Shown: positions 23,798 through 39,417 of the stretch, piece after piece
Layout of the letters: each line of letters begins with the position of its first letter
Numbering within the stretch: position 1 is the stretch's first letter
Source of the DNA: Sphingobacterium thalpophilum
GTDB taxonomy: Bacteria; Bacteroidota; Bacteroidia; Sphingobacteriales; Sphingobacteriaceae
DNA length: 64,000 nt
Direction: 5' to 3'
Assembly: GCA_945868825.1 (NCBI GenBank)
Contig: CAMBMM010000001.1
Location: 62,001-126,000, forward strand
Made by a program: the position numbers and the translations under genes
Notes under the pieces: generated by a model
Database searches by the model: none
Told to the model about the DNA's origin: nothing
The model's input: only the letters and a program-made list of their open reading frames with translations

Positions 23798-23822
23798 TGT
23801 ACCCAATTGGGAAAAATAAAAT

Positions 23823-23862
23823 GTGGAAAACTTTTTTGTGGGAGATTGTGGTAAAAAGTGGA
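23823..23862 (+). promoter_or_regulatory. MraZ operator: 10-bp-phased GTGGN repeats
   Basis: GTGGA at 23823, GTGGG at 23838, GTGGT at 23848 and GTGGA at 23858. The last three are spaced exactly 10 bp apart (GTGGN-N5) and the first 15 bp earlier. MraZ of E. coli binds TGGGN-N5 triplets in its own promoter. A near -7 box TATTTTTA follows at 23872-23879, so bound MraZ would cover the promoter and repress it. Confidence 0.8.
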
Positions 23863-23906: not shown

Positions 23907-24374
23907 ATGGCTCATTTTTTAGGAGAATTCGATTGTAAACTGGACGCCAAAGGCAGGCTCATGATTCCGGCTGGCTTGAAAAAGCAGTTGCCCGAAGCAG
24001 AGCGTGAAGGTTTGGTGATTAACCGTGGTTTTGAAAAACACTTGGTAGTGTATACTCGAAAAGAGTGGGAAGTGATTGTAGATGAGTTAGCCAAGTTAAA
24101 TCCGTACGAAAAGAAAACTCGTGAATTCATTCGCTACTTTACCCGGGGTGCTTCAGAGCTTGGCTTAGATGCCGCCAATAGAGTGTTATTGCCAAAATCG
24201 TTATTAGAATACGGAGGTATTATCGGAGAGGTAGTGCTTTCTTGTCAGTTTAATAAAATTGAAATCTGGGCGAAAGATGCCTACGATTCTCAGTTAGATA
24301 ACGAACCGGAAAACTTTGCTAACCTAGCCGAGGAAGTAATGGGCAATGCCGGAAGGAGGGCTACAAATGACTGA
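23907..24374 (+). CDS. mraZ: MraZ transcriptional regulator of the division/cell-wall cluster
   Basis: A 155-aa protein with two AbrB-like SpoVT domains: GEFDCKLDAKGRLMIPAGL near the N-terminus and ASELGLDAANRVLLPKSL at about 84-101, each carrying the D-x3-R DNA-binding motif. ATG 23907 (MAHFLGEFDCK) is the family start; the frame is open upstream but that part is the operator. MraZ forms a ring and represses its own operon through phased GTGG repeats, which are present just upstream. It overlaps rsmH by 8 nt. Confidence 0.96.
   Translation: MAHFLGEFDCKLDAKGRLMIPAGLKKQLPEAEREGLVINRGFEKHLVVYTRKEWEVIVDELAKLNPYEKKTREFIRYFTRGASELGLDAANRVLLPKSLLEYGGIIGEVVLSCQFNKIEIWAKDAYDSQLDNEPENFANLAEEVMGNAGRRATND
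24353..24359 (+). promoter_or_regulatory. Shine-Dalgarno of rsmH
   Basis: AAGGAGG, 7 nt before ATG 24367 and inside mraZ. It decides the rsmH start over an in-frame ATG at 24346 that lies upstream of it. Confidence 0.7.
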
Positions 24375-36296: not shown

Positions 36297-37661
36297 ATGG
36301 AAAATAATGCTACAACTGCCAAAAATTCACCAATAGTCGTAGGCCTCGATATTGGTACCACTAAAATTTGCGCCATCGTTGGTCGTCGCAGCGAATTTGG
36401 TAAAATTGAAGTGCTAGGAATTGGTAAAGCCGATTCATCTGGAGTAACCCGAGGAGTGGTTTCGAACATTCAGAAAACCGTACAAGGTATTGTTGCCGCA
36501 ATCGAAGACGCTAGCAGCCAATCTAAAGTAGAAATTATGGTGGTTAATGTAGGTATCGCCGGTCAACACATTAAGAGCTTGCAACATCGCGGAATCTTAA
36601 CCCGAAAAGACTTAACTAGTGAAATCCAAAAATCAGATATCGATAAATTGGCGTCGGATATGTACAAATTGGTGATGCCTCCAGGGGAAGAAATTATCCA
36701 TGTATTGCCGCAAGAATTTACGGTAGATAATGAACCAGGAATTAAAGACCCTATTGGGATGGCTGGCGTACGTTTAGAAGCTAATTTTCACATCATTTCA
36801 GGTCATGTAAGTGCGGTAAAAAATATTCTAAAATGCGTTGAGAATGCCAGTTTAGAAGTTGATAGCTTGGTATTAGAACCACTAGCTTCGGCCGAAGCTG
36901 TATTAAGTGAAGAGGAAAAAGAAGCGGGTGTAGTATTGGTAGATATAGGCGGCGGAACAACAGATATTGCTATTTTCCATGAGGGCATTATCCGTCACAC
37001 AGCCGTTATTCCGTTTGGCGGCAATAGCGTAACCGAAGATATTAGAGAAGGCTGCTCGGTAATGCGCAATCAAGCTGAATTATTAAAAACACGTTTTGGT
37101 TCTGCTCTGGCTGAAGAGAACAAAGACAATGAAATTATTTGCGTACCCGGTTTAAAAGGTCGCGAACCAAAAGAAATTTCTGCCAAAAACTTGGCTTATG
37201 TTATTCAGGCTCGTATGGAAGAAATTATTGAGCATGTGTACTACGAAATCAAATCATCTGGCTACGAGAAAAAACTCATTGCTGGCATAATTATTACCGG
37301 CGGTGGATCACAGTTGAAACACCTGCCCCAATTGGTAGAATATGTAACCGGTTTAGATTGTCGTGTAGGCTATCCAAATGAGCATTTGGCTAAAAACGAG
37401 GTATTGCCCAAAGCCACATACGATTTGTTAAAAAGCCCTATGTATGCAACCAGTATAGGTTTATTGATAGATGGCGTTCAATCTGCTGATGAAACATTAG
37501 AAGTGAAAACAATAACTTCTGCACAGACCAAGGTCGTTGTGGACTCTAAAGAACAGAAATCTGATGGTAACTTATTTGAACAGCTTTTCAGAAAAACGAA
37601 GAAATTTATTGAGGATGAAGTGGGTGAGGATACCATCGAAGATAAAGATTACTTGAAATAA
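36297..37661 (+). CDS. ftsA: cell division actin homologue FtsA
   Basis: Tethers FtsZ to the membrane. The 454-aa actin-like ATPase has phosphate-1 VVGLDIGTTKICAIVG, connect and phosphate-2 VVLVDIGGGTTDIAIF, the adenosine-site GIIITGGGSQLKHL and SHVSAVKN of the 1C region. The C-terminus (about 415-454: LFEQLFRKTKKFIEDEVG) is the amphipathic membrane-targeting helix with an acidic tail. It is separated from ftsZ by 124 nt that carry three DnaA-box-like sites. Confidence 0.96.
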   Translation: MENNATTAKNSPIVVGLDIGTTKICAIVGRRSEFGKIEVLGIGKADSSGVTRGVVSNIQKTVQGIVAAIEDASSQSKVEIMVVNVGIAGQHIKSLQHRGILTRKDLTSEIQKSDIDKLASDMYKLVMPPGEEIIHVLPQEFTVDNEPGIKDPIGMAGVRLEANFHIISGHVSAVKNILKCVENASLEVDSLVLEPLASAEAVLSEEEKEAGVVLVDIGGGTTDIAIFHEGIIRHTAVIPFGGNSVTEDIREGCSVMRNQAELLKTRFGSALAEENKDNEIICVPGLKGREPKEISAKNLAYVIQARMEEIIEHVYYEIKSSGYEKKLIAGIIITGGGSQLKHLPQLVEYVTGLDCRVGYPNEHLAKNEVLPKATYDLLKSPMYATSIGLLIDGVQSADETLEVKTITSAQTKVVVDSKEQKSDGNLFEQLFRKTKKFIEDEVGEDTIEDKDYLK

Positions 37662-37709
37662 TTATCCACACGAACGGCATTTTTCCACAAAAAAGGAAAA
37701 TGTGGAAAA
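37662..37709. promoter_or_regulatory. three DnaA-box-like sites upstream of ftsZ
   Basis: TTATCCACA (37662-37670) is the perfect DnaA box. TTTTCCACA (37681-37689) and its inverse TGTGGAAAA (37701-37709) also fit TTWTNCACA. The starts are 19-20 bp apart, close to two helical turns. The last two form a 9-bp dyad with an 11-nt loop. The sites end 76 nt before the ftsZ ATG. MraZ-type GTGG binding is an alternative reading. Confidence 0.65.
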
Positions 37710-37785
37710 CGTGCTGGCAAAATTGAGTAGTATTACCATACGAAAACTTTGTTATCGTATACAAAAAAGAATTAAAACAGATAAT

Positions 37786-39417
37786 ATGCAGTTTGAAATG
37801 TTAAAAGAAAAATCATCTATTATTAAGGTGATTGGTGTAGGCGGCGGCGGCGGTAATGCCGTAAATCATATGTACCGTCAAGGCATTACTGGAGTAGATT
37901 TCATTATTTGTAATACCGATGCGCAAGCATTAGAACTAAGCCCTATCCCGAATAAAGTACAATTAGGCGCTAGCTTAACTGAAGGAATGGGGGCAGGCTC
38001 AATTCCCGAAGTGGGTAAAAATTCGGCTATAGAAAATATAGACGATATTAAAGAAATGTTGGGTGCCAATACCAAAATGTTATTTATTACCGCCGGAATG
38101 GGTGGTGGTACCGGAACAGGGGCAAGCCCAATTATAGCAAAGGCAGCAAAAGAATTAGATATTTTGGTGGTAGGTATAGTAACCACCCCCTTCTCATTCG
38201 AAGGAAAGCGTCGTAAAATGCAAGCCGAAGATGGTTTGGAAGAAATGAAAAAATACGTGGATTCATTCCTCGTAATTTCTAACGATCGTTTGCGTGAAAT
38301 CTTTGGAAACCTAACCTTAGGCTCAGCATTTGGCCAAGCCGATGATATTTTAACCACGGCCGCTAAGGGCATTGCCGAGATTATTACCATACCAGGCTAT
38401 ATAAACGTCGACTTTAAAGATGTGCGTACCGTAATGAAAGATAGTGGTGTTGCCATTATGGGTAGTTATGCCGCCGAAGGCGACAATAGGGCTTTGAAAG
38501 CAGTAGAAGGCGCCTTAAATTCTCCTTTGTTAGAAGATAATGAAATTGAAGGTGCACGTTATATACTCTTAAACATTAGTTCAGGTGATAAAGAAGTAAC
38601 CATGGACGAAGTAACGGTGATTACCGATTATATTCAACAAGAGGCTGGGTTATCTGCCGATCTTATTTGGGGTAATTGTACCGACGAAAGCTTAGGCGAT
38701 AAATTAGCCGTTACCATTATTGCTACGGGTTTCCAAACCATGGAAGAGCGTCAACAATCTCGAAGTCAAGCCATTAATTTTGCTCCCGATTTTGCAGTAG
38801 AAAACGCACCGTTGGTAAAACCAGTAGAACATATAAATACCTTTTTTGCAGCACCAGAACAACCTGCTGCCGAGGAAGTAGTAGAAGAGCAAGAATTGAC
38901 TTCTAGTGTACTCGACCTTTTTGCAGGAGTATCTTCTATTCCTGCCGTAGAAAATGAAGGCTTACAGCAAGAAAAAGTAGAAGAGCTGGTAATGTACCAA
39001 GTAACGCAAGAGCCTATTGTGGAAGAAACTGCACCCTCTACTGCTTTCGAATTTGAACTCAAACTAGAAGAAGCTGAATTGCCATTTGAAGACTATAGCT
39101 CGGCTGCTGAACCAGAAGCAGCAGAACCCGTGATGGAGGTCCACGAAGATGCAATCAAGACCGATGATTCGATAGATGAACAATTGCGTAAATCAAAAGA
39201 ACGCATTATGCGCTTAAAAGATTTAAGCATGAAATTACGTAGTTCAAATGGTTTGCAAGAACTAGAAAATGAGCCAGCTTACAAGCGAAAGCAACTTTCA
39301 TTAGACGATATACCTCATTCATCAGAATCTCAGGTATCTAGATTTACCCTATCAAGCGAAGAAGGAATTACAGAAATAAGACCAAACAATTCGTTCTTAC
39401 ACGATAACGTTGACTAA
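37786..39417 (+). CDS. ftsZ: cell division tubulin homologue FtsZ
   Basis: The GTPase that forms the division ring. The 543-aa protein starts MQFEMLKEKSSIIKVIGVGGGGGNAVNHM; the frame is open from GTG 37702, but that would place the start inside the upstream dyad. The tubulin signature GMGGGTGTGASP and the T7 loop FADVRT-like NVDFKDVRTVM are present. After the globular core (about 330 residues) comes an acidic, Glu-rich linker of roughly 170 residues and a conserved C-terminal peptide region (RFTLSSEEG, IRPNNSFLHDNVD) that would bind FtsA. The long linker is usual for Bacteroidota. Confidence 0.97.
   Translation: MQFEMLKEKSSIIKVIGVGGGGGNAVNHMYRQGITGVDFIICNTDAQALELSPIPNKVQLGASLTEGMGAGSIPEVGKNSAIENIDDIKEMLGANTKMLFITAGMGGGTGTGASPIIAKAAKELDILVVGIVTTPFSFEGKRRKMQAEDGLEEMKKYVDSFLVISNDRLREIFGNLTLGSAFGQADDILTTAAKGIAEIITIPGYINVDFKDVRTVMKDSGVAIMGSYAAEGDNRALKAVEGALNSPLLEDNEIEGARYILLNISSGDKEVTMDEVTVITDYIQQEAGLSADLIWGNCTDESLGDKLAVTIIATGFQTMEERQQSRSQAINFAPDFAVENAPLVKPVEHINTFFAAPEQPAAEEVVEEQELTSSVLDLFAGVSSIPAVENEGLQQEKVEELVMYQVTQEPIVEETAPSTAFEFELKLEEAELPFEDYSSAAEPEAAEPVMEVHEDAIKTDDSIDEQLRKSKERIMRLKDLSMKLRSSNGLQELENEPAYKRKQLSLDDIPHSSESQVSRFTLSSEEGITEIRPNNSFLHDNVD

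Follow-up and report, generated by a model that had tools for sequence, protein, structure and literature searches.

In Caulobacter crescentus, DnaA activates ftsZ and other cell-cycle genes, acting on ftsZ through a promoter with two DnaA boxes (PMC3193534, PMC8203912), and DnaA-ADP is perhaps the form that activates ftsZ best (PMC3193534). In the dcw cluster of E. coli, ftsZ is preceded by three DnaA boxes (within ftsQA), which a review describes as irrelevant to ftsZ transcription (PMC8203912, citing Smith et al. 1996). For E. coli, a tie of ftsZ transcription to replication through DnaA was proposed and later rejected; for Caulobacter, such a tie is accepted. At the nrdAB promoter of E. 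coli, DnaA activates when it is scarce or in the ADP form, and DnaA-ATP represses when it is abundant (PMC8203912). MraZ is a regulator of the dcw cluster (PMC8475190, citing Eraso et al. 2014). In the literature searched, no account of division genes under DnaA control in Bacteroidota was found.

The window, the whole stretch of 64,000 nucleotides that was analyzed, comes from a Sphingobacterium genome of 1.66 Mb in 4 contigs and includes a dcw cluster that spans mraZ (23907) to ftsZ (37786-39417). A first-pass annotation had placed three DnaA-box-like sites in a long gap between ftsA and ftsZ; the gap is confirmed, with 124 nt between the end of ftsA at 37661 and the start of ftsZ at 37786, and the three sites are where they were reported, all of them fitting TTWTNCACA. 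The gap and the genes on either side of it contain the following features.

36297 to 37661, + strand: ftsA (Pfam FtsA 1.8e-47, SHS2_FTSA 1.8e-28)
37662 to 37670, + strand: box 1, TTATCCACA (TTWTCMACA across the family)
37681 to 37689, + strand: box 2, TTTTCCACA, 10 nt past box 1 (9-10 nt in the family)
37701 to 37709, - strand: box 3, TTTTCCACA, 11 nt past box 2 (10-11 nt in most family members)
37714 to 37723, - strand: position of the family's box 4, TGTGnAAAA in many relatives and degenerate (gctggcaaaa) in the window's genus, from alignment and box tallies
37728 to 37736, + strand: TAGTATTAC, conserved as TAnTATTAC, probable -7 promoter element of ftsZ
37786 to 39417, + strand: ftsZ (Pfam Tubulin 2.5e-44, FtsZ_C 4.7e-22), start assigned by homology

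The start codon of ftsZ is the ATG at 37786; the GTG at 37702 given in the list of open reading frames, which falls inside box 3, is rejected because the proteins of relatives begin with MQFEM or MKFEM. The first-pass annotation saw three boxes; relatives add a fourth, lost in the window's genus, together with a weak box and the promoter-like TAnTATTAC.

The motif is not enriched overall: TTWTNCACA was found 12 times in the window versus 9.0 +/- 3.0 times in shuffles, and TTWTCCACA 58 times in the genome versus 55 for the reversed control. The density of boxes in the genome predicts some 5e-5 triples within 48 bp for the genome as a whole, and the ftsZ triple is the genome's only TTWTCCACA triple so tight. 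Nowhere else in the genome do such sites cluster as densely as these three, and this clustering alone is unusual.

The region upstream of ftsZ was compared in 36 Sphingobacteriaceae genomes, picked by kinship regardless of boxes, and in 14 genomes from other families. The family genomes contain 93 boxes versus a mean of 2.0 and a maximum of 8 in 200 dinucleotide shuffles, with two or more boxes in 29 of the 36 and three or more in 21 of the 36 genomes of this unselected sample, and no boxes were found upstream of ftsZ in the 14 genomes from other families. The family layout in the ftsA-ftsZ gap is TTWTCMACA–N9–TTTTCCACA–(weak box)–TGTGGAAAAC–N3–TGTGnAAAA–N5–TAnTATTAC: box 1 (TTWTCMACA) is followed after 9-10 nt by box 2 (TTTTCMACA), a weak AACA-type box, the inverted box 3 (TGTGGAWAAC) and a box 4 present in most genera (often TGTGnAAAA), beyond which comes TAATATTAC or TATTATTAC. 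The spacers are mostly fixed (9-10, 10-11 and 4 nt) and the box letters are those of the DnaA box, although some of the sampled genomes vary at the N of TGTGN in box 4. Most copies of boxes 2 and 3 in relatives fit TTWTNCACA, and boxes 1 and 4 are often TTTTCAACA, with A at position 6. The window's genus has kept boxes 1-3, its box 4 having decayed, and the three sites of the window are what this genus retains of a longer Sphingobacteriaceae element. Two genera (g5 and g7; L029, L031, L033, L035) have kept only boxes 1-2, and the retention of this upstream pair alone in some lineages suggests that it is the core. Another genus (g3; L013, L015) has lost all boxes and kept ftsZ, mraZ and the TAnTATTAC element, and among the upstream ftsZ regions compared the array is absent also from L030, L032, L034, L036 and L037; the array, having been lost in some lineages, is therefore not essential. 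Direct box pairs number 37 in 60 relatives versus 2 in the reversed control, and most box pairs in the family, direct or inverted, sit at ftsZ. The first-pass annotation had staked its DnaA idea on conservation in neighboring species, absence of which would count against it; the array is kept family-wide and, judging from this pattern, is evidently under strong purifying selection across Sphingobacteriaceae.

When 84,980 genomes were scanned for boxes 1-3 in a 28-letter form, at least 119 stretches matched, 80 of which are listed. Among the matches listed, 76 of the 80 belong to Sphingobacteriaceae/Sphingobacteriales (Pedobacter, Sphingobacterium, Olivibacter, Parapedobacter, Daejeonella, Arcticibacter, Desertivirga and MAGs), and all 76 of these Bacteroidota arrays are located between ftsA and ftsZ; within Bacteroidota, the arrays among the matches listed are ftsZ-specific. 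The N-terminal motif of FtsZ is encoded 98-235 nt downstream in 74 of the 76 listed arrays, the sequences of the other two stopping just past ftsA, and the position, orientation and distance to TAnTATTAC and ftsZ are fixed in 68 of the 74 genomes among the matches listed. The other four of the 80 matches listed are cyanobacterial. The three-box arrays of these cyanobacteria (L341, L362, L379 and L386, in Nodosilinea and a related cyanobacterium) lie near a putative priA gene, and a further box is found about 1.1 kb away, at a second gene.

Boxes of the ftsZ type are also found before genes of replication and deoxynucleotide supply. They precede dnaB in 24 of 25 family genomes, with 39 boxes versus about 2 expected (an estimate from the window's box density). 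Four DnaA-like boxes are located in the rlmB-dnaB gap (L097 735-833, G000:C1:550134-550232), which is possibly a DnaA-controlled dnaB promoter or an origin-like region. The class II ribonucleotide reductase gene (nrdJ) is preceded in 17 of 19 genomes by a strict inverted TTTTCCACA pair, 67-69 nt apart, directly upstream of a TTG-N20-TAAATTTG promoter (L098, G000:C2:344967-345053; L208-L223). This resembles the DnaA boxes at the ribonucleotide reductase promoter of E. coli nrdAB, but the Sphingobacteriaceae enzyme is of class II and its inverted pair is rigidly spaced. Several genomes also have one box some 120 nt ahead of the DnaA match.

DnaA is the best candidate binder because the sequence of the sites is that of the DnaA box, including the perfect TTATCCACA, because dnaB and the ribonucleotide reductase gene have such boxes too, and because the recognition helix of DnaA is conserved, reading GGRDHSTV in all 10 genomes checked (L082-L091) and GGRDHTTV in B. 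subtilis. It is speculation that this Thr-to-Ser change relaxes box position 6, permitting A. Features expected of a DnaA-controlled promoter that are present include a DnaA-box cluster beyond chance, boxes kept in place relative to the promoter-like element and ftsZ, and a conserved recognition helix. The reading of the array as a set of DnaA sites appears well supported by comparison, and there is a good probability that DnaA is its binder as predicted. The first-pass annotation had named either DnaA or MraZ; the former proposal is strengthened by family-wide conservation and by the same motif at replication genes, and the latter is not supported.

The known -7 element of Bacteroidota is TAnnTTTG, which is fitted by the TAAATTTG of the nrdJ promoter and to which TAnTATTAC may be likened. 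With TAnTATTAC taken as the -7 element, boxes 1-2 would lie some 50-76 nt before the start and boxes 3-4 some 17-38 nt before it. The ftsA-ftsZ gap would contain the ftsZ promoter and, in front of it, an operator made of DnaA boxes and specific to the family. DnaA would occupy the strong boxes 1-3 and, in relatives, also box 4 and the weak box; bound to boxes 1-2, upstream of the promoter core, it would help RNA polymerase, and full assembly of DnaA-ATP on boxes 3-4, which overlap the core, would block the promoter. Such a promoter would sense both the amount and the nucleotide state of DnaA, working in the manner of E. coli nrdAB, with ftsZ held down or tuned at high DnaA-ATP and released after initiation. 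Transcription of ftsZ would in this way be coupled to DnaA-ATP and so to initiation, as the first-pass annotation had suggested. It is likely that DnaA regulates ftsZ through the array; that the promoter is a switch between activation and repression is a more tentative proposal, and somewhat doubtful.

The array probably marks an ftsZ promoter under DnaA control that is specific to this lineage and can be compared with that of C. crescentus. Both have DnaA boxes in the promoter of ftsZ, but the predicted Sphingobacteriaceae operator comprises up to four boxes and a weak one, at fixed spacing and in both orientations, and belongs to an unrelated phylum. E. coli is like the window in having three boxes upstream of ftsZ within the dcw cluster; its boxes lie inside genes, whereas those of Sphingobacteriaceae lie in a gap and are conserved in the family. 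The warning given by E. coli would apply to the Sphingobacteriaceae array too. The family array suggests that Sphingobacteriaceae tie synthesis of the division machine to DNA replication, and the motif shared with mraZ, dnaB and nrdJ predicts a small regulon joining dNTP supply, helicase and division. The evidence is almost evenly balanced, falling slightly short, for the broader proposal that DnaA of Sphingobacteriaceae is a cell-cycle transcription regulator with a relaxed code (TTWTCMACA) that acts directly on the two dcw promoters (those of mraZ and ftsZ), on the replicative helicase gene and on the class II ribonucleotide reductase gene, forming a Caulobacter-like circuit that would have evolved independently in Bacteroidota. 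With boxes kept across the family and natural losses in some genera, the question is directly testable in culturable Pedobacter and Sphingobacterium.

Control of ftsZ, mraZ, nrdJ and dnaB might instead lie with another transcription factor, so far undescribed in Sphingobacteriaceae, whose site (TTTTCMACA) resembles the DnaA box. Such a factor would suit the common A at position 6, which is off the TTWTNCACA consensus (TTTTCAACA), and the confinement of the array to one bacteroidotan family (among the genomes sampled and the matches listed) when DnaA is universal; it would also suit the failure of the regions searched to show an oriC cluster with this motif. A GC-skew switch at ftsZ was seen in none of three genomes (G000, G011 and G020, coarsely sampled), and the ftsZ gap is ruled out as oriC for lack of this switch. 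The rlmB-dnaB gap was suspected as oriC from the skew of the window's own genome, but a skew switch at dnaB is absent from G011. A search of 880-1400 kb of G011 by contiguous GC skew and by box density revealed no tight cluster, direct TTATCMACA pairs had no common locus, and oriC was not located by skew, box pairs or box density in the genomes examined, so the DnaA box code of the family lacks an independent anchor. However, the perfect TTATCCACA is present both in the array and before dnaB, the targets are replication and dNTP genes, and the recognition helix of DnaA is conserved, all of which make a factor other than DnaA unlikely.

DnaA sinks of the datA type exist in E. coli. The density of the boxes would agree with a site of this kind, for DnaA titration or chromosome maintenance and merely located before ftsZ (datA is named in PMC4585315), but this is very improbable with position, orientation and distance to TAnTATTAC and ftsZ fixed in those 68 of 74 listed genomes, and with no GC-skew switch at ftsZ in three genomes, hence no oriC there.

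The other candidate from the first-pass annotation, MraZ, has an operator of its own upstream in the same cluster.

23822 to 23830, - strand: single ftsZ-type box before mraZ, TGTGGAAAA
23838 to 23861, + strand: MraZ operator, GTGG-N6-GTGG-N6-GTGG
23907 to 24374, + strand: mraZ (Pfam MraZ 2.3e-27)

The ATG at 23907 fits the mraZ start of relatives, the GTG at 23823 in the list of open reading frames being too early. A GTGG triple with 10-bp spacing precedes mraZ in 28 of 28 family genomes, GTGG being invariant in 84 of 84 repeats and the flanks variable, and in 27 of 28 relatives the first GTGG is preceded, at a distance of 14-16 nt, by a separate TGTKGAWAAC box of the ftsZ type; these two motifs, each with its own spacing, suggest that two proteins are involved. 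Binding of MraZ to the ftsZ array, with repression of ftsZ from within the dcw cluster, would draw on the TGTGG or near form contained in all ftsZ boxes, the MraZ sites here being GTGG repeats, and the array shares with the MraZ boxes of dcw clusters both a GTGG-type core and a dcw location. The MraZ boxes, however, are a 10-bp direct triple before mraZ, a distinct motif with another spacing at another site, whereas in the ftsZ boxes the AWAA flank hardly varies and GTTG is tolerated; these boxes are separated by spacers of about 9-11 and 4 nt, stand in both orientations and do not form three or more direct GTGG repeats 10 bp apart; moreover, the genus that lost the array still has mraZ. MraZ is rejected as the binder on motif and spacing, its involvement being highly improbable. 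One genome with the boxes and no mraZ seen (G018) was considered as a natural mraZ knockout and rejected: its ftsZ contig (22.9 kb, with ftsZ at 13.1 kb) ends short of the expected mraZ, which is present in 24 of 25 other genomes of its genus.

That the inverted boxes 2 and 3 form an RNA hairpin (a terminator or attenuator) between ftsA and ftsZ is scarcely credible even though the gap RNA of the window's genome folds better than shuffles (z = -3.1), and it is rejected because compensation is missing (9 of 23 relatives have differences between boxes 2 and 3 without it). In addition, a hairpin leaves boxes 1 and 4 unexplained, no T-run follows, the same boxes stand upstream of the nrdJ promoter, and the gap matches no Rfam family.

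Box pairs were also observed elsewhere. An inverted pair is located upstream of a rhodopsin gene (L096 941-1501, G000:C1:about 486.4 kb; Pfam Bac_rhodopsin 1.1e-31) that probably encodes a proteorhodopsin. Two genomes of one genus, both without the ftsZ array (L109, L110), have a closely spaced inverted pair, TTTTCCACA-N6-TGTTGAAAA, between two divergently oriented genes. Three genomes of the window's genus (L260, L259, L261; G000:C1:360651-360697) have kept TTATCCACA and TTATCAACA, 29 nt apart, between a putative type III glutamine synthetase gene and purL.
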